Positions 2,750 through 30,185 of a stretch of 34,680 nucleotides of DNA are shown here, piece after piece. The stretch covers positions 1 to 34,680 of the IMG/VR virus record IMGVR_UViG_3300037796_000050; one strand, written 5' to 3'. A model generated the notes under the pieces. The model did not search any database. It saw only the letters and a list, made by a program, of their open reading frames with translations, and was not told the DNA's origin. A program made the position numbers and the translations under genes. Origin of the DNA: a virus. Numbering within the stretch: the stretch's first letter is position 1; each line of letters begins with the position of its first letter.

Positions 2750-3022
2750 ATGGAATTCGAAATTGATGATATGGTCTATGATCCTGGTGATGATTTGCCA
2801 CCATTGCTAAAACGCATACTAGACGTGGTAGAGAACATGCCGGACGGGAAATTGTATTCAACGGCTCGTCTGGCTCAGGAGACCGGATGCTCAAAAGACA
2901 CTATCCTGAGTCACACAGCACATCCGGCTTTGGATAAGTACAAAATCAAGCACAAAGGGAATAAAAACGTCTACGGAAACGAGAAAACGATAGAGGCATT
3001 CCTGGAGCAATTCGATGGCTGA
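2750..3022 (+). CDS. Small DNA-binding (winged-helix/HTH-like) protein
   Basis: A 90-residue acidic protein preceded by a very strong TTTAGGAGGCACT ribosome binding site. Residues 18-80 look like a small winged helix: a helix ending in LLKRILDVV, a YSTARLAQETGCSKDTI helix-turn-helix stretch (about residues 37-52), then a short basic wing. It overlaps the next gene by eight bases. Such a protein could be a transcription factor or an origin or packaging adaptor; nothing further can be assigned from the sequence. Confidence 0.6.
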   Translation: MEFEIDDMVYDPGDDLPPLLKRILDVVENMPDGKLYSTARLAQETGCSKDTILSHTAHPALDKYKIKHKGNKNVYGNEKTIEAFLEQFDG

Positions 3023-3878
3023 AAATGGCGAGTATACACTCGATGAAATCACACGTGAGGCAGTGCCCGATACAGTCAAAAAAGAGATGGACAATCTCAG
3101 AGAGGCACTTACACGGCTCCAGGAAGAACGTCACTACATTATCCCTGTCAAAGACAAGGGGAACACCATCAGGCTTGCTGTGATAAGCGATATACATGCA
3201 GGATCATTGTATGAGAGATTCGACGCTCTTGAAGAGTTCTATCGGCTGCTGAAAAAAGAGAAGGTCAAGACTGTGCTCATACCGGGTGACATTCTCGACG
3301 GTCATGGAATGTATCGCGGTCAAGAATTTGAGGTCTATGCTCATGGTGTGAGACGACAGATCGAGGTGCTACAAAAAAAATACCCGAGTGATAAGAACAT
3401 TCAGGAAATATTTATAACAGGAAATCACGACTACTCGTTTGACAAACAGGTGGATTTAGGAATAGGCGGGAAAATAGCCGAGGAGCTGGGATGGAAATAT
3501 GTAGGCAGAGACCAGGCATGGGTTGAGCTAAAATCACAAGATGGACACAGTTATAATGTTGGCCTGTATCATCCTGACGGAGGTACGAGCTATGCATTAA
3601 GTTACAAATCGCAGAAATTAGTCGAGCAAATCCCTGGTGGGAAAAAACCGGACATGCTTTTTATCGGCCATTATCACAAGGCAGAATGGATGCCACGGTA
3701 CAGAAATGTCGAGGTATTCCAGGCCGGGTGTTTCCAGAGCCAGACACCATATATGGCACGTAAACCGACCGACGCACATGTAGGCGGTTGGATAGTCGAG
3801 ATTGTCCTGGGGAAAAGAGAGCATCTTGTAAGCAGGGTAAAGGCGGAGTTTATATCATTTTATGAGCCAGAAGAATGA
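3015..3878 (+). CDS. Calcineurin-like metallophosphoesterase
   Basis: A 287-residue enzyme with the full metallophosphoesterase motif set: SDIHAG (Asp59, His61), GDILDGHG (Asp92), GNHDY (Asn137, His138), an isolated His186 in LYHPDGG, and GHYH (His219, His221), which bind a two-metal centre. The first ~50 residues are helical and specific to this protein. The family includes DNA exonucleases, DNA polymerase small subunits, cyclic-nucleotide phosphodiesterases and phosphatases; the arrangement resembles phage and archaeal nuclease-like members, but the substrate cannot be read from the sequence. It overlaps the upstream HTH gene, so the two are likely co-translated and may act together, for example on DNA or on a host signalling nucleotide. 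Confidence 0.9.
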   Translation: MAENGEYTLDEITREAVPDTVKKEMDNLREALTRLQEERHYIIPVKDKGNTIRLAVISDIHAGSLYERFDALEEFYRLLKKEKVKTVLIPGDILDGHGMYRGQEFEVYAHGVRRQIEVLQKKYPSDKNIQEIFITGNHDYSFDKQVDLGIGGKIAEELGWKYVGRDQAWVELKSQDGHSYNVGLYHPDGGTSYALSYKSQKLVEQIPGGKKPDMLFIGHYHKAEWMPRYRNVEVFQAGCFQSQTPYMARKPTDAHVGGWIVEIVLGKREHLVSRVKAEFISFYEPEE

Positions 3879-4129: not shown

Positions 4130-4130
4130 T

Positions 4131-4201
4131 AGCAGGGTGGTCTAATGGTAGGATGCCGGTCTCATAAGCCGGAGCCGGAAGTTCGAATCTTCCCCCTGCA
4201 A
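4131..4201 (+). tRNA. tRNA with anticodon CAT (Met, or Ile after modification)
   Basis: A 71-base cloverleaf. Acceptor pairs 2-7 are GCAGGG/CCCTGC; A1 faces A72, an unpaired end otherwise typical of initiator tRNAs. The D arm is GTCT-AATGGTA-GGAT with two wobble pairs, the anticodon stem CCGGT/GCCGG holds the loop CTCATAA (anticodon CAT at 4163-4165), the variable loop is four bases, and the T arm GGAAG-TTCGAAT-CTTCC is perfect. The initiator hallmark of three G:C pairs next to the loop is missing, so elongator Met or Ile2 is as likely. CCA is not encoded. It starts one base after the tRNA-like element. Confidence 0.85.
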
Positions 4202-4327
4202 TACCGGGGCGGTAGGAACCGGATATAGGTCACTATATCGAGGTCGGGATGCAGACAAGGGATATGCCCTTGATAGCTTAGAACCTTGGCAACCCGTGCC
4301 GTAGGGGAGACGTCTCCTTTCCCGGTT
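4202..4327 (+). ncRNA. Unassigned multi-helix structured RNA directly after the tRNA
   Basis: A ~125-base non-coding stretch that folds into several perfect helices inside one closing stem. The closing stem is ACCGGG (4203-4208) with CCCGGT (4321-4326). Inside are CGGT-AGGA-ACCG (4210-4221), GATATAG-GTCA-CTATATC (4222-4239, 7 bp), an outer CGGG/CCCG plus GC/GC helix (4245-4252 with 4289-4296) enclosing CAAGGG-ATATG-CCCTTG (4256-4272), and GGAG-ACGT-CTCC (4306-4317). It begins at the end of the tRNA. It does not match riboswitch, RNase P, 6S or self-cleaving ribozyme signatures I could recall. It may be a ribozyme, a processing signal or a phage regulatory RNA. Confidence 0.55.
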
Positions 4328-5390: not shown

Positions 5391-5785
5391 AACTGGAACG
5401 TATAGGAGACGACCGGGATTATGCTTTTGATCTCGGTCGTGCTCAAGCCGATGCCGTATTTCCTGGCCTGGGAAATATGGTTTTCGGAAAAAGAAAGTTT
5501 TGTAAAGCATGGTGCGCGGAAGTGATTGGTTTCCATGAGCAATATAAATTTGCTCGTACCTTTCTGAAACCTAACCGTGATTACACCGAAGCGAACAGCA
5601 TGGGTAGTCGCGGAGTATATGATTATTTTAATCTTGAAAACGGTAAAATATATGATATTTCATCGCCGAGTTCATGGAAAAAGGTAGACCGTTATTACTG
5701 TCGAGTCGAGAATAATCAGATGAGAAGAATAACAGAAAATGAGGTGGAACAATGGCTAAACGACCGCTTGGGACTGACGTCTTAA
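5378..5785 (+). CDS. Hypothetical protein upstream of the IbrA-like gene
   Basis: A 135-residue protein, rich in aromatic residues and Arg/Lys, with two Cys near residues 47 and 51. It overlaps both neighbours: its start lies in the preceding gene and its last 34 bases overlap the IbrA-like gene. No family is recognised. The tight packing suggests it belongs with the IbrA/IbrB module. Confidence 0.55.
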   Translation: MVQIKLERIGDDRDYAFDLGRAQADAVFPGLGNMVFGKRKFCKAWCAEVIGFHEQYKFARTFLKPNRDYTEANSMGSRGVYDYFNLENGKIYDISSPSSWKKVDRYYCRVENNQMRRITENEVEQWLNDRLGLTS

Positions 5786-6963
5786 CAGCAGCCAGGGAAA
5801 GAATTGAATATATCTTTGATTGTTTTGACCGCATTTACGTGTCTTTCTCTGGCGGGAAAGATAGTACAGTCATGCTTCATCTCGTGATGGATGAGGCAAT
5901 AAAAAGAGATCGTACTGTCGGGGTATTGTTTGTCGACCTCGAAGGTCAGTACAAGCTCACTATAGATCACATAATGGAAATGTACGAGCTATATAAATCT
6001 CACACCGAGTGGTATTGGATATGCCTGCCGATTGCGCTACGCAATGCCGTTTCTGTATATCAACCCAAATGGCAATGCTGGAATCCTGACAAAAGGGATA
6101 TATGGATACGTCAACCACCGGATATAGCCATTACGGATCAAGAATATTTACCGTTTTTTCGTCGAGATATGGAGTTTGAAGAGTTTACCCCGGCTTTTGG
6201 GGAATGGTATGCAGGTGGCGAGCCTACGGCTTGTTTCGTTGGTATTAGAACTGATGAATCCTTACACCGATGGGGAACCGTTACAAGTGACACCAAACAA
6301 ACATTTATGGATAAAAAATGGACTACTTGGATGCATGGAGCAGTATATAACGCGTATCCAATTTATGATTGGCGAACTCGTGATATTTGGATTTACAACG
6401 GCAAATACTACAAACCCTACAACAAGCTTTATGACCTGATGAATAAAGCCGGATTATCAATCCATCAACAACGTATCTGTCAACCATATGGCGATGACCA
6501 AAGAAAGGGGTTGTGGCTTTTCCATGTAATAGAGCCGGAAACATGGAGTAAGATCGTTGCTCGTGTTAATGGTGCTAATAGCGGAAGTGAGTTTGTTAAA
6601 TATTCCGGGAATGGTAGCGGACAAATAGTTATAACAAAACCGGAAAATCATACTTGGAAATCGTTTTCTGAGATGCTACTCGAATCTATGCCGGATAAAA
6701 TCAAAGAACACTATAAAAGCAAAATCGCTGTGTTTTTGAAATGGTATCATGATAGGGGCTATCCTAATGGTATCCCCGATGAAACTGACAGACAATCGGA
6801 GGCCGAACGGAAAAAACCGTCATGGAGAAGAATAGCAAAGATGCTATTGCGTAATGATTATTGGGCCAAAGGTTTGTCATTCTCTCAAACTAAACCAGCA
6901 CATTATGAGGCATACCAAAAAGTAATGAAAAACAGGAGGCGGAAATGGGGGATTATGATTTAA
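5752..6963 (+). CDS. ibrA-like: IbrA-like PP-loop (PAPS reductase family) protein
   Basis: A 403-residue member of the phosphoadenosine-phosphosulfate reductase/PP-loop ATPase superfamily. The PP-loop SFSGGKDST is at residues 31-39, followed by the FVDLEGQY strand; the middle part with YPIYDWRTRDIW and YNKLYDLMNKAGLS, and the RVNGAN segment, match my recollection of IbrA/YbdN proteins. In E. coli, IbrA acts with the ParB-like IbrB and together they activate prophage-encoded eib genes; their biochemistry is unclear. PP-loop relatives such as DndC take part in sulfur-based DNA modification. The adjacent ParB-like gene overlaps it by 19 bases, confirming the pair. A start at 5752 fits GAGGTGG upstream. 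Whether it acts in regulation, DNA modification or sulfur transfer is open. Confidence 0.85.
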   Translation: MAKRPLGTDVLTAARERIEYIFDCFDRIYVSFSGGKDSTVMLHLVMDEAIKRDRTVGVLFVDLEGQYKLTIDHIMEMYELYKSHTEWYWICLPIALRNAVSVYQPKWQCWNPDKRDIWIRQPPDIAITDQEYLPFFRRDMEFEEFTPAFGEWYAGGEPTACFVGIRTDESLHRWGTVTSDTKQTFMDKKWTTWMHGAVYNAYPIYDWRTRDIWIYNGKYYKPYNKLYDLMNKAGLSIHQQRICQPYGDDQRKGLWLFHVIEPETWSKIVARVNGANSGSEFVKYSGNGSGQIVITKPENHTWKSFSEMLLESMPDKIKEHYKSKIAVFLKWYHDRGYPNGIPDETDRQSEAERKKPSWRRIAKMLLRNDYWAKGLSFSQTKPAHYEAYQKVMKNRRRKWGIMI

Positions 6964-7457
6964 TCTGGACAAAAGACCATCCGGTAAGTAATATTCAATG
7001 GATATCAACCGATGAAATATACGGAAATGACTATAATCCTAATAAGGTGGCGCCACCGGAAATGAAATTATTAAAACATTCTATTGAGCAAAACGGATAC
7101 ACACAACCTCTAGTTGTATGGAAAGTAGAATATGGGTACGAGGTAATTGACGGGTTCCACCGTCATCTTGTAGGAAAAGAACTGGGGTTCTCTCACCTTC
7201 CGTGTGTAATTATTAATAATAAAGACACTGGAAGAAATGACAGGATAGCTGCTACTATACGTCATAATAGAGCAAGGGGCAAACACCAAATATCGGCAAT
7301 GAGTGATATTGTTGTAGAACTTTCACGTCGAAATTGGAGTGATAAACGCATTGCAAAAGAGCTCGGTATGGACGCAGATGAGGTGCTGAGACTCAAACAG
7401 ATTACAGGCCTTGCCGAATTGTTTGCCGACGAAGAATTTTCGGAGGCCTGGGAATGA
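6945..7457 (+). CDS. ibrB-like: IbrB-like ParB-domain protein
   Basis: A 170-residue protein with a ParB/sulfiredoxin-like N-terminal domain: NPNKVAPPEMKLLKHSI (about residues 31-47), TQPLVVW and the VIDGFHRH box (about 66-73) that in the superfamily binds and hydrolyses nucleotides, then IRHNRARGKHQI (about 104-115) and an HTH-like segment with LGMDADEVLRLKQ (about 140-152). The order and these segments agree with IbrB/YbdM. It has AGGAGG ahead of its ATG and overlaps the IbrA-like gene, so the two should be made together. The two-domain layout suggests DNA binding coupled to a nucleotide-driven reaction. Confidence 0.85.
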   Translation: MGDYDLIWTKDHPVSNIQWISTDEIYGNDYNPNKVAPPEMKLLKHSIEQNGYTQPLVVWKVEYGYEVIDGFHRHLVGKELGFSHLPCVIINNKDTGRNDRIAATIRHNRARGKHQISAMSDIVVELSRRNWSDKRIAKELGMDADEVLRLKQITGLAELFADEEFSEAWE

Positions 7458-7678: not shown

Positions 7679-8467
7679 TTATTGACGAGACGTGGAATCT
7701 CTGAGACTGTCCACAAATTTCTTGGCAGCACTATCAGCGATCTCTTGTATTCCATCTTCACCGAGGGCATCGGCAATGTAGACTCTATCCTGTTCCCTGC
7801 GTTTTCGCCGCTCCCAAATCTGTTTCGCAGCCTCGTAGAGCTTTACATCGGAAGGATTTTCTTCATAGATTTTCTCTCTCCATGTATCGGTCAGGGTAAA
7901 TCGGCGTTGCATGTAAAGTTTTTCTCCTTCAACTTCCGTGACCTCACCAGTAACTCGCTGATTCTCTATTTCGCAGGATAGATGAAAATGCTTTTTGAAT
8001 ATTTCTATCAGAGTATCCAGTCCCTCAGTAATACCGACCATCCAGAATTTGCGCAGGACAGCTATTGTCTCCTCGACTGTCTTTACTCGACATTTTTCCA
8101 TATACCAATAGGCCATGCGGTTGCGAAAGATATTGTATGGGTAGGTGGTTGACCTGCCTACCGTATTATACCAGGTCGGGAATTTGATATTGAGGTTCCT
8201 CCGGGCACAGTCTAGGTGGTACATACTCACAAGCCAGTCTGCCGGATCACGGAGGACGGTAAAGTACTTGGGCTCTTCTATCCCGACATCTTTATGAAAT
8301 CCGTAGCCGATGACATGAGGGTCGATCACAATCTCTGTGGCCGGATTGACGTCTCTTACATAGAGATCGGTGCAGCCTCTGTGATGTCTTAATAGTGTAG
8401 TAAGAGTAGTGGAGCCAGTTCTCATTAGACGGATAAATATGTGAACAGGCATAGGTGAGTGTATCAT
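7679..8467 (-). CDS. PAPS-dependent sulfotransferase family protein
   Basis: A 262-residue protein with the two signature sites of sulfotransferases. The 5'-phosphosulfate loop is RLMRTGSTTLTTLL (residues 13-26, R-x-x-R-T-G-S/T type) and the 3'-phosphate site is VLRDPADWLVSMYH (residues 71-84, RDP...S type). Such enzymes move sulfate from PAPS to a carbohydrate or protein hydroxyl. In phages they are rare; a role in changing a host surface polysaccharide or a phage component is possible. It is encoded leftward with a lipoprotein and an RHH gene and has no good Shine-Dalgarno sequence of its own. About 60 bases separate its end from the IbrA/IbrB operon, so two PAPS-type folds are neighbours here. 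Confidence 0.8.
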   Translation of the reverse strand: MIHSPMPVHIFIRLMRTGSTTLTTLLRHHRGCTDLYVRDVNPATEIVIDPHVIGYGFHKDVGIEEPKYFTVLRDPADWLVSMYHLDCARRNLNIKFPTWYNTVGRSTTYPYNIFRNRMAYWYMEKCRVKTVEETIAVLRKFWMVGITEGLDTLIEIFKKHFHLSCEIENQRVTGEVTEVEGEKLYMQRRFTLTDTWREKIYEENPSDVKLYEAAKQIWERRKRREQDRVYIADALGEDGIQEIADSAAKKFVDSLRDSTSRQ

Positions 8468-20049: not shown

Positions 20050-20385
20050 ATGGGTAACAGAGCAAAGGGCGGGTTCGGAGATAACCCTCAAAATATCAAT
20101 AGAGCCGGGAGGCCCAAAAAAGGGAAAACGCTGACTGACATTCTCGAGAAACATGGGAAGAGGCGAGACATAGAATATGTCGATGAGAAGACAGGAGAGG
20201 TAAAAAAGCGTAGTCGCAAAGAGGAGTTAGCCAGGGAGCTGTGGGCGCTTGCAATGGATGGTGATATACAGGCCATTAAATACATATACGACCGCATAGA
20301 TGGGAAACCGACAGAGCACCAGGAGATAACCGGAGATATCGGCATAGAAATAGAGTATGTTGAAAACGAGAGTGAGGATCAATAA
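20050..20385 (+). CDS. terS: Small terminase-type protein (DUF5681-like)
   Basis: A 111-residue basic protein. GFGDNPQNINRAGRPKKGKTLTDIL (split over residues 8-32) is the N-terminal DNA-contact motif of DUF5681-type small terminase or terminase-associated proteins; the rest is helical and ends acidic. It lies immediately upstream of the large terminase and overlaps it by 29 bases. Such proteins recognise phage DNA and start packaging. The ribosome binding site is weak (AAGTGA). Confidence 0.75.
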   Translation: MGNRAKGGFGDNPQNINRAGRPKKGKTLTDILEKHGKRRDIEYVDEKTGEVKKRSRKEELARELWALAMDGDIQAIKYIYDRIDGKPTEHQEITGDIGIEIEYVENESEDQ

Positions 20386-21553
20386 TGCGTACCGCCACCT
20401 GGAACAGTACGGACCGCGGTTTGAAGTTGTCTACGGTGGTGCTGGAAGCGGCAAGAGTTATGCAATTGCTCAAGTCCTAATTATTACCGCATTGCGCGAT
20501 CCTGGACGGAAGATACTGTGTGTTCGGAAGGTGGCAAAGACTCTACGGTTTTCAATGTATGCGCTATTCCGGCACTTGATAGCAGAGTACGGACTGGGAG
20601 CATATTTTAGGGAGAATAAGAGCGAGTTCACGTTCACGTGTTTGAACGGATCGCAGATTATTTTACAAGGCCTGGATGATGTTGAGAAAATAAAATCGAT
20701 CTTCGGCATTACTGATATCTGGGTGGAGGAAGCCTCCGAGATTACGGAGGATGACTATAAACAACTTAATTTGAGGATGAGAGGCGGTGAGCATCCCAAG
20801 CGGATGCTTTTTTCATTTAATCCGATTTCTCGGCTGCATTGGCTGAAAGAACATTTTTTTGACCAGGCGCGGAGCAATGTACGTGTTACACACACGACAC
20901 ACAAAGACAATAGGTTCTTGGATACAGACTACCGTCAGGAGCTCGAGGCGCTGAAAGATATCGATCCGTACTTCTATTCGGTCTACTGCTTAGGAGAATG
21001 GGGAGAGCTTGGAAATCTGGTATTCAGCAATTACGTGATCGAGTCGTTTCGGTACGAATGGGATGATTACGACGAGCAAACGGTTGGCGTTGACTTTGGT
21101 TACAACGATCCGTCAGCCATTATTTTACTGGGCTGGAAAGATGACGAGCTGTATGTCCATGACGAGCTCTATGCAAGGGGGCTTACAAATACGGAGCTGA
21201 TCGATGCAGCACGCAATATTGTAATTGACGGAGATACGATAATGACGGCAGACAGTGCAGAGCCGGACAGGATAAGCGAGTTTCAGCAGGCAGGGTTTAA
21301 TATGATGCCAGCGAAAAAAGGCAAAGACAGTGTGCGTCATGGGATAGACTTTCTAAAACGAGTGAAGATACATATACACTCGGAACGCTGTCCAAGTACA
21401 GCACGAGAGATACAAGAGTACAAGTGGAAAGAGGACAAGGACGGGAATGTTTTGGACGAGCCGATAGGATATAACGATCATGCGATAGCAGCGATACGTT
21501 ATGGCGTTGAACAGAGGCGGCTCGCGAGGGATTTGGAGGTAGCATGGCTATAA
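20357..21553 (+). CDS. terL: Terminase large subunit
   Basis: A 398-residue packaging motor and nuclease. ATPase motifs: Walker A GGAGSGKS (residues 27-34), Walker B ITDIWVEEA (Asp120, Glu124), and the coupling stretch LFSFNP (151-156). Nuclease motifs: VGVDFGYNDPS (Asp246), ADSAEPD (Asp299) and GYNDHAIAAIRYG (Asp374). The layout matches the PBSX/Terminase_3 type that makes headful or cohesive ends; the exact packaging strategy cannot be read from the sequence. It starts inside the small terminase gene and ends ten bases inside the portal gene. Confidence 0.93.
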   Translation: MLKTRVRINNAYRHLEQYGPRFEVVYGGAGSGKSYAIAQVLIITALRDPGRKILCVRKVAKTLRFSMYALFRHLIAEYGLGAYFRENKSEFTFTCLNGSQIILQGLDDVEKIKSIFGITDIWVEEASEITEDDYKQLNLRMRGGEHPKRMLFSFNPISRLHWLKEHFFDQARSNVRVTHTTHKDNRFLDTDYRQELEALKDIDPYFYSVYCLGEWGELGNLVFSNYVIESFRYEWDDYDEQTVGVDFGYNDPSAIILLGWKDDELYVHDELYARGLTNTELIDAARNIVIDGDTIMTADSAEPDRISEFQQAGFNMMPAKKGKDSVRHGIDFLKRVKIHIHSERCPSTAREIQEYKWKEDKDGNVLDEPIGYNDHAIAAIRYGVEQRRLARDLEVAWL

Positions 21554-23589
21554 TTGACAGACTGGTAGATAAGATAGCGGATAAGATCACGAAGACCTAC
21601 AGCCTGAATGATCCGACCCTTGCAGCAATAGCCGGATGGACGAAGAAAGACGAGTTGCAGGATGCTTATAGCCAGCTGCCTACAGTGTACGCAGCGATTA
21701 CAGCGAAAGCACGGACACTATCAATGGTGCCGTTTTACATATACCCGAAAGGGGGCGACGAGCCGGTAGAACGCGGACCGGTGTATGATCTGTTCCAGAA
21801 TATCAATCCGCGATACTCGATATATGATTTCTGGACGTCCTGGGTGGTTGGGCTTGACCGGAAAGGTGAGCATTACATCTATCTAGACCCGGAGACGGAC
21901 CGAAACGGGGTGCCGCTTAATCTGTGGCCCTTTCCCAAAGATATGGTCAAACCGCTATTTGACCGAAACCAGTATCATGTCGGATGGCAGATACGACGAG
22001 GGAAGCGGACAATTGTGGCCACTTTGGATGAGATGATCTTTGACAGGTACTTCAACCCGAACAGCGATCTTGAGGGGCTCTCTCCTTTGGAGGCTGTGAG
22101 CAAGACAACGGAGGTCAAGTGGAAGGCATGGCAGTACAATAATAACTTCTTTGATAATAATGCGATTCCTGGAATTGTCGTGGAAGGGGATAAAGAGACA
22201 CGCGTAAATGAACAGCAACGGCAACGGTTGGAACATCAACTCTTCGAGCAACGGAAGGGTGTACAGAAAGCACACAAAGGACTTCTGCTTACCGGGGGGC
22301 TAACTGCGAAAACACTGTCATTCTCGCAAAAAGATATCGAGTTCCTAGAGACATTGAAATTGACCACAGAGGAAATCCTCCAGGTGCTCGGCGTGACGAA
22401 GACGCAGCTATCGATCATGGAGGATGTCAACTACGCCACTGCATTAACGCAGGATAGGGTGTTTATGCAGAAAACCATTATCCCTTTAGGGACACAGATC
22501 GAGACGAAACTGAACCAGCAATTTCTTAATCGATTTGGGTATGAGGGACATTTCGACTGGAACCAGGTTGATGCACTCAATTATGAAGTTTTGCACAAGG
22601 TTGAGGCTGCCGAGAAGCTGTTTAATATCGGCTTTACCGCGAACGAGATCAACGATCGACTAAACTTGGGATTTAAAGAGCAGCCATGGCGAGACGAACC
22701 GAAGCCACAGCAGGGGATGATGGAGCTTATGAGACAGGAGATAGGTGACCTCAAACAAGAGTTACTGACAGAGGTCAAGGCGCTTCCGAAAGAAGGGCCA
22801 GTAGAAAATGCGTCTAAACTCCTGGTCGAATCGAAGCGGGCGGAGATTTGGAAGAATCTTAATGCTCCGGTTATGCCGCTTATGAGCAAAGCAGCATCCC
22901 AGATACGTGAGTATTTTAGAGATGTTGAGCAGAAACTGCTCAAACGGTTTACAACCGGGAAGAACGTCAAGGACGTCACCGATTACATCAACCAGCAGAT
23001 AGACGAACTTGATACTGACTTTGACGATGAGCGATTGCGGAGGCTGCTGTCTGATCTTATCAGAGAGTCGGTCCTGCGCGGCGGATCCTCGATCCTTGGA
23101 GAGTTTGAAGGGGACACTGAGCCGATACAAGCGATGTTAAACGCTCGGCTCGATAAAATCAAGGGAATCAATCAGACAGTGGTCGAGAATCTACGGAAGA
23201 AGCTCAAAGACAGAATTGCCGAGGGAATCCCAGAGCGGGAGGCAACACAGAAAGTACTCGATACTGTCAAAGAGCAGATGAAAATATCCAGAAATCGAGC
23301 AAAAACGATCGCACGCACCGAAACGCACGGTGCCTATTCAGACGGCCGGTGGGAAGCAATGTCACAGACGGAGCCGGTAGGATTGATGTGGATATCCTCG
23401 AGGGACAGCAACGTAAGAGATTCACACCAGTGGATGGACGGGACCGTGACTAGGTTTGGACAGACGTTTGGCAACGGGTTGAAACGGCCACATGATCCGG
23501 CAGGCCCGGCAGATGAAGTGATCAATTGCCGATGCAAAGCCGTAGCGATACATGACCCTGAAGAGTTTAGAGAATTAGGAGGCAGATAA
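21544..23589 (+). CDS. Portal protein fused to MuF-type head morphogenesis domain
   Basis: A 681-residue fusion. Residues 1-390 are an HK97-type portal: SQLPTVYAAITAKARTLSMVPFYIY near the start, the GLDRKGEHYIYLDP and LEGLSPLEAVSKTTE segments, and the ATALTQDRVFMQKTIIPL helix. Residues about 395-520 are a helical linker. Residues 525-675 are a MuF-type minor head domain with SRNRAKTIARTETHGAYSDG, WISSRDSNVRDSHQWMDG, and NCRCKAV. Portal and minor head protein are separate in most phages; fusion fixes one MuF domain per portal subunit (12 per head). The C-terminal part may carry an injected effector-like role as other MuF proteins do, but no toxin domain is seen. Confidence 0.9.
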   Translation: MAIIDRLVDKIADKITKTYSLNDPTLAAIAGWTKKDELQDAYSQLPTVYAAITAKARTLSMVPFYIYPKGGDEPVERGPVYDLFQNINPRYSIYDFWTSWVVGLDRKGEHYIYLDPETDRNGVPLNLWPFPKDMVKPLFDRNQYHVGWQIRRGKRTIVATLDEMIFDRYFNPNSDLEGLSPLEAVSKTTEVKWKAWQYNNNFFDNNAIPGIVVEGDKETRVNEQQRQRLEHQLFEQRKGVQKAHKGLLLTGGLTAKTLSFSQKDIEFLETLKLTTEEILQVLGVTKTQLSIMEDVNYATALTQDRVFMQKTIIPLGTQIETKLNQQFLNRFGYEGHFDWNQVDALNYEVLHKVEAAEKLFNIGFTANEINDRLNLGFKEQPWRDEPKPQQGMMELMRQEIGDLKQELLTEVKALPKEGPVENASKLLVESKRAEIWKNLNAPVMPLMSKAASQIREYFRDVEQKLLKRFTTGKNVKDVTDYINQQIDELDTDFDDERLRRLLSDLIRESVLRGGSSILGEFEGDTEPIQAMLNARLDKIKGINQTVVENLRKKLKDRIAEGIPEREATQKVLDTVKEQMKISRNRAKTIARTETHGAYSDGRWEAMSQTEPVGLMWISSRDSNVRDSHQWMDGTVTRFGQTFGNGLKRPHDPAGPADEVINCRCKAVAIHDPEEFRELGGR

Positions 23590-24341
23590 TGCCGTTACCG
23601 GAACCGAGGAATGACGAGAGCAAAGAGGATTTTATCCAGCGATGTATGGAGGATGAGACAATGAATGAGGAATACCCGCGAGAAGACCAGAGACATGCAG
23701 TATGTGTATCACAGTGGGAACAGGACACCGATACTAGGCACTTGAAAGCGGTGATCAAAGGGAAAGACAAAGAGGGTATCTATTCGGCATTGGCATCTAC
23801 GAAAGACGTAGACCGTGACGGAGAGGTAATTCTTCCGAAAGCGTTTAAAAACCTAGACAGCTATCTCAAAACCAACCCAGTGATCTACTACGACCATGCA
23901 TGGGCCACCTTCGGAAGTCCAAACGAGGGAACACTTCCTATCGGGAAAGCAGTTTCCGGGCATGTTGATGAGGAGAACGGTCTGTATCTGTCTTGGAAAT
24001 TCTCTGAATTGCCGTTTGCGCAGATGGTCAAAACGCTGGTCGATGAGGGGATCCTCAACGGCGTATCGGTTGGATTTATCCCGAAGTCCTGGGATTGGGG
24101 GGAAAACAACGAACGAGTGTACACCGAGGTGGAGCTCCTTGAGCTCTCTGTGGTCGGCATCCCTGCGAACGGATACGCACAGATATTAAGACGACTGGAA
24201 GAAGATGGGAAACAAGAGGCTGCTGTTGCAGTCAAATCAATAATGAAACATGAATCTCATAGGTCGAATCTAGCCAGGAACCTGAGCATGAGCCTACGGG
24301 CGGAGCAAAAAGGCGGAGGCAAAGGCAGGCTGAGATTCTAA
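23589..24341 (+). CDS. HK97-family prohead protease
   Basis: A 250-residue serine protease of the U35/S78 type. The catalytic triad is visible: His103 in VIYYDHAW, Ser160 in NGVSVGFIP, and an acidic residue in ELLELSVVGIPAN (Glu185). The first 45 residues (PLPEPRNDESKEDFIQRCM...DQRHAVCV) form an extra N-terminal segment found in many phage proteases and in some capsid proteins. It cleaves the capsid delta domain during maturation. It overlaps the portal gene by a single base and is followed by the capsid gene. Confidence 0.92.
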   Translation: MPLPEPRNDESKEDFIQRCMEDETMNEEYPREDQRHAVCVSQWEQDTDTRHLKAVIKGKDKEGIYSALASTKDVDRDGEVILPKAFKNLDSYLKTNPVIYYDHAWATFGSPNEGTLPIGKAVSGHVDEENGLYLSWKFSELPFAQMVKTLVDEGILNGVSVGFIPKSWDWGENNERVYTEVELLELSVVGIPANGYAQILRRLEEDGKQEAAVAVKSIMKHESHRSNLARNLSMSLRAEQKGGGKGRLRF

Positions 24342-24355
24342 ACAAGGAGATAATC

Positions 24356-25672
24356 ATGGAACCTATACAACTTTTGAAAGATCGAGTAGAGGACAAAAAG
24401 GCCCTGCTCGAAGTGACCGAGGATGAAGCGAAACAGAAAGAGCTTACCTCGGAAATACTCGACCTTGAACGAGAGATCGGCAAGGAAGAGGCAAAGGCGG
24501 AGTTTGAAGCCAAACAGGCCGAGAAAGAATCTGCCGAACGGAAAGCCGCACAGACCCAGACTGAAACTGCCAAACAGACAGGCGCGCAGCGTGTTGAGGT
24601 CAAAGAGTCTGACGAATACAAGGGCTACAAGCTAAAAGCGGAAGTAGCTTCCTTGCAGGGATATGCAGGCTTGAACGAGAATGTCCGTAAGCGGTTTATC
24701 GAACGTCCAGACATTGCCGAGAAAATGGCGACTATGTGGATTGACATGATCGAGAAGGCAATGGCAGGTGGACCGCAAAGGGTGGCAAATATCAAAGCAT
24801 CTATGCAGGAAGACACCGACAGCGAAGGCGGTTATCTGGTATTCCCGGAATATCGCAACGAGGTGCTTTCCTATATCCGTGAGGAATCGGTGGCCCTCCA
24901 GGATGCACGGGTTGTACCGATGGCATCCGATGTCGCTTACTACCCGCGAGAGAATTCTACCGTCAGCGTGACCATAACCGATGAGGAAAACGATGCTACG
25001 GCATCCAACCCGACGTTTGAGCAGGTCACCCTTACTGCGAAACGGCACGACGCCTACGCCACCGCATCGAATGAGCTTTTGAATGACCAGTCGATCCCTG
25101 GCGGGATTGTGGCTATTCTTATGAGCCAGTTTAATGAAGCGGTCGGCCAGAAGATCGACTCTGCTACTTTCATCGGATCCGGCGATCCGGTCTCCGGTGT
25201 ATTCCTGAGCGCAGGGTATTCTGTAGTTTTCGGTAGCGGATCAAGTGCTTTCTCTGAGCTGCTCGAAAGCGATATTAGAGAGGTAATCTCTAAGATTCCG
25301 ACCTCCCGGCTGGCGGGAGCAAAGTTTTACTGCCACAGATCGCCAGCGTGGACCTACCTCTACGGTCTCAAAGACGGAGACGACAGACCGCTGTTTATAC
25401 CGTCAACGACCAGGGAGAATCCGCACCAGGTATACGGGTATCCTCTGAGACTGCCGGAGAAGGCGCCATCTTCGAGCGCGGCGGATACCGGGTTCATTGT
25501 ATTCGGGAACCTGCGAGGGTTCATGATCGGTGAACGTCTTGGAAATATCGAAATGATCGTCGATCCGTATACACTCGGCAAGTCCTACCAGACCAACTTT
25601 TATATCTTCACTCGGTGGGCATACGCTCACGGACTGCCGAACAACTACGCACGGATCGTAACGGCTAGCTAA
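24356..25672 (+). CDS. Major capsid protein, HK97 fold
   Basis: A 438-residue protein. Residues 1-100 are a charged coiled coil, the scaffolding-like delta domain that the protease removes. The shell domain begins near GGYLVFPEYRNEVLSYI (about residue 158), followed by SVALQDARVVPMAS, the E-loop-like stretch VSVTITDEENDATASNPTFEQV and TLTAKRHDAYATASNELLND, which are typical of HK97-type capsids. It is followed by a strong terminator, which should keep its own message abundant. AAGGAGA precedes the ATG. Confidence 0.93.
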   Translation: MEPIQLLKDRVEDKKALLEVTEDEAKQKELTSEILDLEREIGKEEAKAEFEAKQAEKESAERKAAQTQTETAKQTGAQRVEVKESDEYKGYKLKAEVASLQGYAGLNENVRKRFIERPDIAEKMATMWIDMIEKAMAGGPQRVANIKASMQEDTDSEGGYLVFPEYRNEVLSYIREESVALQDARVVPMASDVAYYPRENSTVSVTITDEENDATASNPTFEQVTLTAKRHDAYATASNELLNDQSIPGGIVAILMSQFNEAVGQKIDSATFIGSGDPVSGVFLSAGYSVVFGSGSSAFSELLESDIREVISKIPTSRLAGAKFYCHRSPAWTYLYGLKDGDDRPLFIPSTTRENPHQVYGYPLRLPEKAPSSSAADTGFIVFGNLRGFMIGERLGNIEMIVDPYTLGKSYQTNFYIFTRWAYAHGLPNNYARIVTAS

Positions 25673-25703
25673 TGAGACGGTTTTTAAAACACGTCATTTT
25701 GAA

Positions 25704-25730
25704 GGCGGGGCACAAAGCTCCGCCTTTTTT
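25704..25730 (+). terminator. Rho-independent terminator after the capsid gene
   Basis: GGCGGGGC (25704-25711), loop ACAAA, GCTCCGCC (25717-25724, one G-U pair), then six T. It sits in the gap between the capsid gene and the glycosyltransferase gene. Confidence 0.88.
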
Positions 25731-25744
25731 ATTGAGGGAGGAAG

Positions 25745-26872
25745 ATGAAAATACACTGGGCGAATCTGTGGGAAGGGATCGGGATAGCCTACGGGTACAG
25801 CAATCATCAGAAGAAGCTCCTCGAGGCGATCGAGAGACAGGGGATAGAGATTGACCGGGATGCTGATGTGGCGGTGCATCTTACGACACCTGCGACATTC
25901 CAGCCAACTGAAGGGAAGCTCAATTTTCTGTACACGATGTATGAGATGAACGATTTGCCGCCTGATTACGTGGAATGTCTCGATAAGGCAGATGTAATCG
26001 TGGTTCCATGCAAGCACAATAAAACAGTGTTTCAGAAGTACACCGACCGACCTATAGAGGTGTGCTGGGAAGGTGTGGATACAGATATCTACACCTACAC
26101 CGAGCGAGAGTTTCCACAGAACAGACCGTTTACCTTCCTGTGGTTTGGGGCGTCGAATCCGCGGAAAGGGACAGAGTACATGATGGGAGCATGGGAGGTG
26201 TGGAACCGGATGTATCCTGAGCTTAGAAACAAGACAATGCTCATTATGAAGACCACACAGAATGGGGATAATTATTTTAATGCGAGCGTGGTACAGCAAG
26301 AGGTTGACGGAAAGCTTGACTGGGTGGCGGATAAAAAGGTCCAGATGCCACAGGAGAGAATTGTGCGATGTGGTGGTAATGCGATTGTGGATACCCGAAA
26401 GATGCCGGAAGTGGTAGACGGGCCTATGCAGAATCCACCGGGCAGTTTGCAGCAGATATACCATTTTGCACATGCCTTTATTCTGCCCACTCGGGGTGAG
26501 GGTTTCGGGCTTACTTTAGCAGAGGCGGCGGCTACCGGATTGCCGTGTGTCTACACTCCATTCTCAGGGCCGAGGGATTTTATGAGTGAGAAGATCGGAT
26601 ACCCGATCAAATGGACAATGGGGAAGGCAAACACAGTCAACCCACAGGACGGCTCGACATTATTTGAGTCTACAGCAGCCACACCGGATATTGAGAGCAT
26701 TGTGCGGAGGATGTATCAGATATACAGCAATTATAACCGGGCACTTGCAAAAGGCCGGAAGGCAGCAGAGCACATGAGGAAAGGTTTTACCTGGGACATC
26801 TCAGCACAAAGTCTGATACGGATCATACAAAAATATACGGAGGAGAAATGGGAGACGCAAAAGTCAGCGTAA
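25745..26872 (+). CDS. GT4-type glycosyltransferase encoded in the head cluster
   Basis: A 375-residue GT-B fold enzyme. The N-terminal lobe ends with WEGVDTDIY (about residues 108-116), a conserved junction; FTFLWFGASNPRKGTEYMMGAW (about 129-150) starts the nucleotide-sugar lobe; FILPTRGEGFGLTLAEAAATG (about 245-265) has the GT4 E-x7-E motif (Glu252, Glu260). GT4 enzymes transfer a sugar from a nucleotide donor. It lies between the capsid terminator and the connector genes, with GAGGGAGGAAG ahead of its ATG, and its end overlaps a radical SAM gene. That position suggests virion proteins as the substrate, but lipopolysaccharide or another glycan is possible. Confidence 0.85.
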   Translation: MKIHWANLWEGIGIAYGYSNHQKKLLEAIERQGIEIDRDADVAVHLTTPATFQPTEGKLNFLYTMYEMNDLPPDYVECLDKADVIVVPCKHNKTVFQKYTDRPIEVCWEGVDTDIYTYTEREFPQNRPFTFLWFGASNPRKGTEYMMGAWEVWNRMYPELRNKTMLIMKTTQNGDNYFNASVVQQEVDGKLDWVADKKVQMPQERIVRCGGNAIVDTRKMPEVVDGPMQNPPGSLQQIYHFAHAFILPTRGEGFGLTLAEAAATGLPCVYTPFSGPRDFMSEKIGYPIKWTMGKANTVNPQDGSTLFESTAATPDIESIVRRMYQIYSNYNRALAKGRKAAEHMRKGFTWDISAQSLIRIIQKYTEEKWETQKSA

Positions 26873-27660
26873 CGACAAAGTGTAATGCCAAGTGCAAGAC
26901 GTGTCCGGTATGGAAACTGCCGAGCGATACCATGAGTTTTGGACGTTTCCAACAGTTGATTAAGATTCTGAATGACTCGAATAAAGTTGACCGGATACTG
27001 CTTAACAACACGGGAGACCTCTACAACATTCCAGATCATGTAAAGTATTTAACGTATGTAGAGAGACACATGAGGAAGCCGGTAATCATGACAACGAATG
27101 CTGGATTGATGGACTACGTTCCGACCATCTCATCTCTCATTATCAGCTTCAACGGGGGGAACAAGGAGGCGTACGAATATACCACCGGGGTAGATTTTGA
27201 CGAGACGGTGAAGCGGATAAGAGAAGCGTATCCTATGATGCGCAAAGTCCCTAGTGTTGAGATGCATTGTCTTATCTGGGACGGTAATGCGGAAAGCGAG
27301 AAAGACCTGCTTGATCTGTGGGATGATTTCCCAGGGCGTATACGAGTGAGCTATAAATACGACAATCAACATGAAGAGGACCACACACTAGAAGAGTACA
27401 AAACAGACCAGCGTATCCCATGTGATTATCTGAGTAAAAATATATCTATCATGCCGACCGGGCAAGTCGTGGCATGTGCGCATGATTTCAAACGAGTAAC
27501 GAATTTCGGGAATGTGTTTGAAGATGATATTGAAGCCATTCTCTGGTCAAAAGAACGGAGAGAAATGCTTGCGAAACACAATAAAGGAATATTCGACGGG
27601 CTGTGTGAAAATTGTAATTACAACACGTTGACACACGGGAAAATAAAATATCTGAGGTAG
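26848..27660 (+). CDS. Radical SAM enzyme with SPASM-like C-terminus
   Basis: A 270-residue enzyme. TTKCNAKCKTCPVW (Cys12, Cys16, Cys19) is the CxxxCxxC motif that binds the radical SAM [4Fe-4S] cluster; TGDLY and TTNAGLM are further core strands. The C-terminus has Cys192, Cys210, Cys253 and Cys256 with GQVVACAHDF, TNFGNVFEDDIEAILWS and GLCENC, a SPASM-type auxiliary cluster domain. SPASM proteins usually modify peptides or sugars. It overlaps the glycosyltransferase by 25 bases, so both are made together. The likely target is a phage structural protein or the sugar put on it; this is an inference from position. Confidence 0.88.
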   Translation: MGDAKVSVTTKCNAKCKTCPVWKLPSDTMSFGRFQQLIKILNDSNKVDRILLNNTGDLYNIPDHVKYLTYVERHMRKPVIMTTNAGLMDYVPTISSLIISFNGGNKEAYEYTTGVDFDETVKRIREAYPMMRKVPSVEMHCLIWDGNAESEKDLLDLWDDFPGRIRVSYKYDNQHEEDHTLEEYKTDQRIPCDYLSKNISIMPTGQVVACAHDFKRVTNFGNVFEDDIEAILWSKERREMLAKHNKGIFDGLCENCNYNTLTHGKIKYLR

Positions 27661-27664
27661 GACT

Positions 27665-28261
27665 ATGGCATATACGATAGATACTGACAATCAATTATTT
27701 ACACTCGCTGAGCTCAAGAGTTTTTTAAATTACCCAGATACCTCTAAAGATGATGAGCTCTCCAGAGTGGTCGATGCCGTATCCTGGTTTGTCAATTCGT
27801 TCACTGGGCGGAAATTGCTCGCACGAGACCTGACAGAATATTACGATGGTGACGGGACGAATAAATTATATGTAGACAATTATCCGATCAATTCTTCTTC
27901 CTCAGAGATAGAGGTGTATGTCTCGACCGATGTGCCGCGAGATTACAGCGCTGGCAATAAGGTTGATGCAGACAATATTCTTATCTACGACGATGAGGGA
28001 TTGATAGTCGTACTCAATACATTTTTCAGTGCCGGAGCACAGACAGTGAAGGTGGTCTATAACGGTGGGTACTCGACGGTCCCGCACGATCTAAAAGACG
28101 CATGTTTACAGGTGGCATCGATGCTGTGGAAACGGGAGAAGGGAAGCTTGCATGGGCTTACCACGGTGAGTTTTCAAAACGGATCGGCAACTTATGAAAT
28201 TGAGAAAGCGATGCCGGCATCAGCGAGACTCATCTTAGAGGATTACAGGCGATATGTATGA
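27665..28261 (+). CDS. Head-tail connector (gp6-like) protein
   Basis: A 198-residue protein. LFTLAELKSFLNYPDTSKDDELSRVVDAVSWFVN (two pieces, about residues 11-45) followed by TGRKLLARDLTEYYDGDGTNKLYVDNYPI is the well-known start of gp6-type connectors that form the ring below the portal; the C-terminal half with VPHDLKDACLQVASMLWKREK agrees. It overlaps the next head-tail gene by eight bases. Confidence 0.85.
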   Translation: MAYTIDTDNQLFTLAELKSFLNYPDTSKDDELSRVVDAVSWFVNSFTGRKLLARDLTEYYDGDGTNKLYVDNYPINSSSSEIEVYVSTDVPRDYSAGNKVDADNILIYDDEGLIVVLNTFFSAGAQTVKVVYNGGYSTVPHDLKDACLQVASMLWKREKGSLHGLTTVSFQNGSATYEIEKAMPASARLILEDYRRYV

Positions 28262-28721
28262 TATTGAGTTTGAAGATAATGGAGTAACACTGTCACTGAA
28301 ACGGATTCAGAAGGACATGCCGCATATTGTCAAAAAATTATTGGGAGCCTGGTCGGATGAGATCATAAAGATATCTGAGAATGAATATCTTGATGCAGCT
28401 CCAGGGAATACGCAGAGATTGCACAGCCGGTCAGGAGATTTATCGTCGGCATTGTACGCAAAGATAACCGGGGATTATGCGATCCTCGGCAACCCGATGG
28501 TGTACGCAGCCATCCACGAGAACGGTGGTACGATCACTGCGAGAAACAGTGAGTATCTGCATTTTAAAACTCGGGATGGCTCCTGGGTAAAGACACGACA
28601 GGTGACGATACCGAAACGGCCATTTCTGAAACCGGCAATTGATGAGGTCGTGAAAACAGCGAAAGCAAAACGGGTTGCTGACGTGGTATTAAAACGAGAG
28701 TTACAAAGGAGATGGAAATGA
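28254..28721 (+). CDS. HK97 gp10-like head-tail joining protein
   Basis: A 155-residue protein. RSGDLSSALYAKI, VYAAIHENGGTI, LHFKTRDGSWV and IPKRPFLKPAIDEV are the order of segments conserved in the HK97 gp10/neck family. It bridges the connector ring and the tail. It overlaps its neighbours on both sides. Confidence 0.88.
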   Translation: MYDIEFEDNGVTLSLKRIQKDMPHIVKKLLGAWSDEIIKISENEYLDAAPGNTQRLHSRSGDLSSALYAKITGDYAILGNPMVYAAIHENGGTITARNSEYLHFKTRDGSWVKTRQVTIPKRPFLKPAIDEVVKTAKAKRVADVVLKRELQRRWK

Positions 28722-29201: not shown

Positions 29202-30185
29202 ATGGGTATTATATCAGGGCAAGACAGCCATTGCCAAATCGGATTAGAGAGTACATGGGGGACTGGAGTTACCCCGACGCTCGAATTGTCCTTCACGTCC
29301 GAAAGCCTAAAATACGTCCCGAATTATATTTCAGAGGACGCATTGGTCGGACGAAAAACCACCTCCCGGATGGATGTTTCCGGGAAGAAAGGGGAGGGGG
29401 ATATCTCTTTCCTCTGCAAGCCGGATGAGATAGGGCTATTGCTCGCGGCTGCATTAGGGGCCGAGGGAGACTACAGTCAGATCGATTCATCCGCCGCTTA
29501 TTCTCATCAATTCTCACCGGTAGCCGGTGGGACCAGCGGATCGTTGCCACATCTTACCGTTGTCGTCGACCGGAAAGTAGCGGTAGCACAGTATACCAGC
29601 TACAAGATCGGACAATTGACACTGGAAGCTGCCGTCAATGATTACCTCCGCGGTACAATCTCGGGAGTGGCCTATGATGAGGAGGCCGGATCGCTTGAAA
29701 GCCTTACACCATCTTCTCTCAGGGCGTTCCAGTTTGTCGACGGTGAAGTAAAAGTCGATGATACGGCCTGGACCTCGCAGGTGACGGATATCAATCTCAC
29801 TTACAACAATAACCTCGAGGACGGTCTCTATACCATGGGTACGGATGGATACATGGCGGAGATTGAACCGCAGAAAAGGGAGATCACAGCAGAGATTGAG
29901 GTCCTCTATGATTCAACGACCAACACGGTACGGACCAACGATTTCAAGGCTGGGACGACGATTGACCTCTGGCTCAAGTTTGAGTCGACCGAGGAAGCCG
30001 ACACCGACATCCCATACCAGCTCATCATCGAGATGCCGTTGTGTTACATCACTGATGCGAGTCCTAATGTCGGCGGACCGGAGCGGATCCGGCAGACACT
30101 CTCGGTCTCAGCCTCAGAAAATGCGAGCAATGAGGCAATTACAGTCACCCTTGTCGATGCACAAGGCAACGATTATCTCAGTTAA
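29202..30185 (+). CDS. Major tail tube protein
   Basis: A 327-residue beta-rich protein behind ATAGGAGG. IGLESTWGTGVTPT (residues 13-26) and GKKGEGDISF, LLAAALGA are the typical N-terminal segments of siphophage tail tube proteins of the 'phage tail tube protein' type; the C-terminal half (about residues 200-320) has Thr/Ser-rich strands, possibly an extra surface domain. It polymerises around the tape measure to form the tail. Confidence 0.85.
   Translation: MGIISGQDSHCQIGLESTWGTGVTPTLELSFTSESLKYVPNYISEDALVGRKTTSRMDVSGKKGEGDISFLCKPDEIGLLLAAALGAEGDYSQIDSSAAYSHQFSPVAGGTSGSLPHLTVVVDRKVAVAQYTSYKIGQLTLEAAVNDYLRGTISGVAYDEEAGSLESLTPSSLRAFQFVDGEVKVDDTAWTSQVTDINLTYNNNLEDGLYTMGTDGYMAEIEPQKREITAEIEVLYDSTTNTVRTNDFKAGTTIDLWLKFESTEEADTDIPYQLIIEMPLCYITDASPNVGGPERIRQTLSVSASENASNEAITVTLVDAQGNDYLS

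Follow-up and report, generated by a model that had tools for sequence, protein, structure and literature searches.

The window, by which we mean the whole 34,680-base virus record analysed here, carries a head and tail cluster that fills its right half, and within this cluster two enzyme genes, GT and rSAM, lie between the capsid terminator and the connector gene. An earlier note, made from the letters of this DNA, had described such a pair at this place, and both reading frames are found exactly there. The features to which we refer are as follows.

7679-8467, minus strand: sulfotransferase homologue (weak Sulfotransfer_1 match; similarity to cassette proteins of relatives)
20357-21553: TerL
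21544-23589: portal
23589-24341: protease
24356-25672, plus strand: major capsid protein, HK97 fold (Pfam Phage_capsid, 5.6e-37; capsid-led census and tree)
25701-25727, plus strand: terminator-like hairpin (11 pairs, 7 of them G-C) and T tract, separating capsid from GT
25745-26872, plus strand: GT, a GT4 glycosyltransferase of GT-B fold, 375 aa (Pfam, alignment, Foldseek)
26848-27660, plus strand: rSAM, a radical SAM/Twitch enzyme, 270 aa (Pfam, alignment, AF2, Foldseek)
27665-28261, plus strand: head-tail connector, the downstream border of the cassette (Pfam Phage_connect_1, HCP; phrog_442)
28254-28721: neck
29202-30185: tail tube

The GT and rSAM reading frames, both on the plus strand, overlap by 25 nt, and each is preceded by a purine-rich ribosome site (GAGGGAGGAAGATG for GT, GGAGGAGAAATG for rSAM). 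Elsewhere in the window, a DUF3440 plus PAPS-reductase-like gene (5752-6963) overlaps a ParB_N gene (6945-7457), a pair that we take to resemble IbrA/IbrB; a tRNA-Met gene with anticodon CAT occupies 4130-4202; and a Calcineurin-like phosphoesterase gene (3015-3878), for which the top NCBIfam hits, none of them reaching its cut-off, are models of the small subunit of archaeal DNA polymerase II, may hint that the host or the source of the gene is archaeal.

Relatives and the capsid-to-connector interval

Neither window enzyme has a match in the 50,697 phage records of INPHARED, nor, by tblastn, do the rSAM of locus L088 or the members of a second rSAM family described below, and pattern scans that started from one window enzyme alone returned nothing from IMG/VR or genome_contigs. 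A search with the window capsid led to L002, a 16-kb contig whose order, TerL-portal-protease-capsid-GT-rSAM-connector, is identical to that of the window, at identities of about 56-57% for rSAM, 49% for capsid, 47% for GT, 45% for TerL, 40% for portal and 39% for connector. As in the window, a GC-rich hairpin with a T tract follows its capsid gene; a small zinc-ribbon-like ORF (CPNC...CLKCG; L002:9369-9514) that is absent from the window lies between its capsid and GT genes. Two-sequence profiles then revealed a family of 14 rSAM loci and 13 GT loci in IMG/VR. With a GT profile of 17 sequences, 360 viral relatives of GT came up, and 80 of these were retained. The pattern scan of genome_contigs (84,980 species), which hinges on conserved motifs and could let remote cellular homologues escape, gave a single relative, the phage contig L110, which had been binned in the MAG 'Dive96_bin1.91' and has the order GT-sulfotransferase-rSAM-connector-neck-tail. 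The small bacterial phylum of this MAG yielded distant cellular homologues only, and the plasmid search gave matches of just 22-24%, in Lawsonia and Brachyspira.

To avoid picking loci by their enzymes, the census of the interval was led by the capsid and covered non-redundant contigs with at least 1.3 kb downstream of the capsid gene, lineage capsids being those with a capsid profile score of at least 350 (n = 30) and the outgroup being nine more distant capsids. GT adjoins the capsid gene in 27 of the 30 lineage contigs vs none of the nine outgroup members, in a census biased towards the cassette clade, its capsid alignment having been built from cassette-bearing phages. Among the 23 complete lineage intervals, 22 contain GT, 15 contain this rSAM, three contain the second rSAM family and five contain no rSAM. 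Five outgroup members (L160, L161, L165, L168, L169) present an empty site, with the connector 85-137 bp behind the capsid gene, in keeping with the earlier suggestion that building a head does not in itself require the pair. The genomic survey proposed in the earlier note, of the pair next to HK97 capsid genes, shows the window's locus to be shared by a clade of tailed viruses, all uncultured. A scan led by TerL was uninformative because this gene has been swapped among relatives: the window TerL has 45% identity to that of L002 and about 20% to those of L085 and L086, where capsid and GT stay near 50%. Among isolates, the window TerL is matched best by that of Thermoanaerobacterium phage THSA-485A (53%).

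In the capsid tree, 52 rows form a core clade (support 100/99) in which no row is shown to be without GT, seven of them ending before GT could appear, and a separate clade of five (L183, L192, L199, L206, L209) has GT beyond the connector. On this tree the GT label must have been gained or lost more than once, and hence we do not claim a single origin. Small ORFs directly behind the capsid gene in these five contigs resemble decoration proteins, and in L192 the pair is reversed, with rSAM ahead of GT, and lies after the connector gene and before the tape-measure gene (L192:6202-8005).

The interval also receives other genes, be it between GT and rSAM or at another point. Sulfotransferase-like proteins occur in the cassettes of L090, L095, L099, L103 and L110, methyltransferases in the intervals of L089, L109 and L138, and NAD epimerases in those of L123 and L138; for sulfotransferase and methyltransferase, several matches fall short of the Pfam cut-off, and the sulfotransferase-like proteins of L095, L103 and L110 were assigned through their resemblance to that of L090 instead of by Pfam. 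Enlarged islands hold GDP-mannose 4,6-dehydratase, DegT aminotransferase, GT2, GT9, FkbM methyltransferase and B12-type radical SAM genes. The window's own sulfotransferase homologue, encoded far from the interval, matches cassette proteins of L099, L183 and L090 at 30-31% identity across some 210 aa and, judged from this similarity, could be an unlinked third component of the cassette pathway. The second rSAM family takes the place of rSAM behind the same GT in three contigs (L099:5803-6633, L101:11208-12035, L195:7436-8260), with a canonical GGEPT motif in the first two. Further radical SAM genes were also seen: one between capsid and connector in each of L224 (2813-4060) and L226 (2902-4173), the former with a B12-binding domain and the latter with a similar start that suggests the same, and several clustered with two sulfotransferase-like genes on one viral contig (L098:2423-11966).

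Purifying selection acts on both enzymes, which diverge in step with the capsid. Across 12 cassette loci, median pairwise identity is 48% for rSAM, 48% for GT and 47% for capsid, and 41% for protease, 38% for portal, 31% for connector and 27% for neck. GT identities are correlated with rSAM identities, and both with those of the capsid protein (Mantel r 0.76-0.81, p 0.0002), and no such correlation links enzyme identities with TerL. dN/dS ranges between 0.03 and 0.13 for both enzymes in close pairs with measurable dS. Since many viral contigs, independent of one another, show this gene order, the catalytic residues are all kept in both enzymes, and dN/dS is this low between close pairs, the pair is more than a chance neighbourhood, and we regard its presence in the head cluster as real, conserved and functionally coherent.

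Class and fold of GT and rSAM

GT matches the Pfam families GT4-conflict and Glycos_transf_1 above cut-off, and its E252-x7-E260 motif, N92 and R140-K141-G142 are invariant in an alignment of 17 relatives; with the GT-B fold matches, the E-x7-E motif and the Pfam matches place it among the GT4 enzymes. Its top Foldseek match, and its best PDB match in structure and sequence alike, is B736L of chlorovirus NY-2A (3oy2), also a virus-encoded GT-B enzyme, albeit from a eukaryotic giant virus and at about 13% identity. The acceptor of B736L, capsid included, and its role have not been demonstrated (PMC9614988). GT and rSAM are both without membrane segments (maximum KD19 near 1.1). An O-antigen seroconversion cassette of the gtrABC type was considered and rejected, given the lack of membrane segments in either protein and the capsid and connector genes as neighbours.

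The CX3CX2C cluster motif of rSAM (C12, C16, C19) is invariant in an alignment of 14 relatives, as are four auxiliary cysteines (C192-X17-C210-X42-C253-X2-C256), with no others conserved outside the core. The SPASM family of Pfam matches above cut-off and Radical_SAM below it, and in place of a GGE-type SAM-binding motif after strand 2 the protein has N53-x2-G56-D57, these residues again being invariant. The AF2 model (pLDDT 92.5) matches BtrN, SuiB and anSME, which together with the cluster motif puts rSAM in the radical SAM superfamily. A SPASM domain needs seven cysteines, for two auxiliary clusters (PMC6231123), and Twitch is its truncated one-cluster form (PMC6231123; PMC9012708); four conserved auxiliary cysteines, not seven, rule out a full SPASM domain and make rSAM a Twitch enzyme, as is BtrN. 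The SPASM radical SAM enzyme of the earlier note is therefore upheld as a radical SAM protein with a C-terminal Fe-S extension and corrected as to the kind of extension.

BtrN (PDB 4m7s, 4m7t), the dehydrogenase of butirosin biosynthesis, is likewise a small two-domain protein of radical SAM plus Twitch, and both enzymes have the pattern of a single auxiliary cluster fully ligated by cysteine. Entry 4m7t is the top Foldseek match of the rSAM model, BtrN is the only match of the rSAM profile in PDB, and C210, C253 and C256 of rSAM align with C187, C232 and C235 of BtrN, at an overall identity of about 18% over 218 aligned residues. The substrate of BtrN is free 2-deoxy-scyllo-inosamine; the enzyme oxidises an aminocyclitol alcohol (PMC9012708). 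It is the nearest solved relative of the phage protein, whose likeness to such a sugar oxidase is one of fold and cysteine pattern only. By VIA-align, BtrN is tied with SuiB, anSME and SkfB at Z about 19, so that fold alone leaves the substrate of rSAM unsettled. Three distant homologues of rSAM in cellular genomes have glycan-type genes as neighbours, encoding methyltransferases and a GT2-like protein and an NAD-epimerase-like protein, these ORFs having been judged by reading rather than by profile.

The structural tie with the peptide enzymes SuiB, SkfB and anSME is what commends a different substrate, namely a virion protein in which rSAM would oxidise, epimerise or cross-link an amino-acid side chain, making or flanking the sugar site of GT. 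A conserved protein substrate would also be expected to hold rSAM at about 56-57% identity between the window and L002 despite the diverged portal and connector. We nevertheless think this unlikely. SuiB, CteB, anSME and PqqE share with rSAM the radical SAM core, the C-terminal Fe-S extension and the overall fold (Z about 19), but have seven auxiliary cysteines and two clusters where the rSAM family has four cysteines. SkfB, SuiB and CteB contain an RRE domain (PMC6231123), unlike the rSAM family, in which an N-terminal domain of this type is absent: each of the 14 members has its cluster motif from residue 10-12 onwards, and a barrel strand is already present at residue 2. The lack of a peptide-recognition domain and the four-cysteine Twitch argue against the cross-link that the earlier note had offered as one option, and the exclusive BtrN match of the profile and the sugar enzymes that neighbour the pair in relatives likewise weigh against a side-chain substrate.

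A candidate virion-glycosylation cassette

The reading that we consider probable is that the interval encodes a virion-glycosylation cassette, in which GT attaches a glycan, rSAM tailors it, and sulfate or methyl is sometimes added. As a soluble GT4 enzyme, GT would transfer a sugar from a nucleotide donor to a virion protein during late gene expression, the likeliest acceptor being the capsid protein, product of the gene just upstream. rSAM would act on that sugar, either in the protein-linked glycan or at the precursor stage, perhaps as a BtrN-like carbon-radical oxidase or epimerase that leaves a keto or inverted sugar. Finishing could then fall to a sulfotransferase (in the window, the unlinked gene at 7679-8467) and, in relatives, to methyltransferases and NDP-sugar enzymes. 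The expected benefit would be a varied particle surface, with consequences for adsorption, for evasion of host or environmental binding, or for stability. Glycan decoration is favoured because sugar-nucleotide and glycan-tailoring genes fill the interval in relatives, so that of the decoration proposed in the earlier note the glycan gains ground and the cross-link loses it. From the position of the cassette and its co-divergence with the capsid we infer the capsid as acceptor, although the tail could serve instead, given the five contigs in which GT lies beyond the connector.

Some of the same cargo can be read as serving the cell rather than the particle: GDP-mannose dehydratase, DegT aminotransferase and GT9 in the enlarged islands are typical of surface polysaccharides, genes of polysaccharide type are found near the distant homologues of rSAM in cells, and the enzymes might modify host-surface glycans late in infection, for receptor masking, superinfection exclusion or release, merely riding the late operon. 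We judge this improbable, as both enzymes are soluble, with no membrane helices, and the locus stays with the capsid: the capsid-connector position is kept while other genes change, and GT and rSAM identities track that of the capsid. Nor was a flippase or membrane glycosyltransferase seen beside GT and rSAM. The earlier note had named co-occurrence with LPS or host-surface genes, in place of the capsid, as counterevidence to virion decoration; such co-occurrence is partly found in the enlarged islands, but as the genes there still lie between capsid and connector, it does not overturn that reading. Very improbable is an auxiliary metabolic or DNA/nucleotide-modifying function that is unrelated to glycans and parked in the late region, for while radical SAM enzymes serve many pathways and GT could in general glycosylate other acceptors, base-modification or nucleotide enzymes were seen in the interval of no relative and its cargo consistently comprises GT, sulfotransferase, methyltransferase or NDP-sugar enzymes.

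Virion glycosylation by phages is itself already known. Che8 and Rita encode GTs and have glycosylated capsids (PMC11256854, citing Freeman et al. 2023); these mycobacteriophages are, like the virus of the window, tailed phages with phage-encoded GTs and the capsid as likely acceptor. That source mentions no radical SAM or sulfotransferase partner for the system, and in the F1 phage Maravista, a relative of Che8 and Rita, the GT genes lie near the 3' genome end rather than adjacent to the capsid gene. The Arthrobacter phages Kitkat and DanielleIgnace encode distant GT4 homologues (26-28% identity) among their structural genes, but between the tail-terminator region and the tail genes, not directly behind the capsid, and with no rSAM partner annotated. 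No phage system that combines a GT with either a radical SAM enzyme or a sulfotransferase beside the capsid gene emerged from the literature searched (most subscription journals were outside its scope), where radical SAM and sulfotransferase tailoring in virion glycosylation is not described; together with the absence of rSAM from the INPHARED records, this is in line with the earlier note's statement that it knew of no described phage system with this pair.

Phage capsids are commonly regarded as bare protein, and glycosylated virions are, to our knowledge, known from few isolates. We propose, more tentatively than the cassette itself, that an uncultured tailed lineage has its capsid glycans rebuilt, on the particle or in preparation for it, by a radical SAM enzyme that oxidises or epimerises their sugars, and then sulfated or methylated, through a modular island at the capsid-connector site. 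If this is true, virion glycosylation would be a modular, evolving trait in a clade of uncultured viruses, and the virion would be a new kind of setting for radical SAM enzymes.
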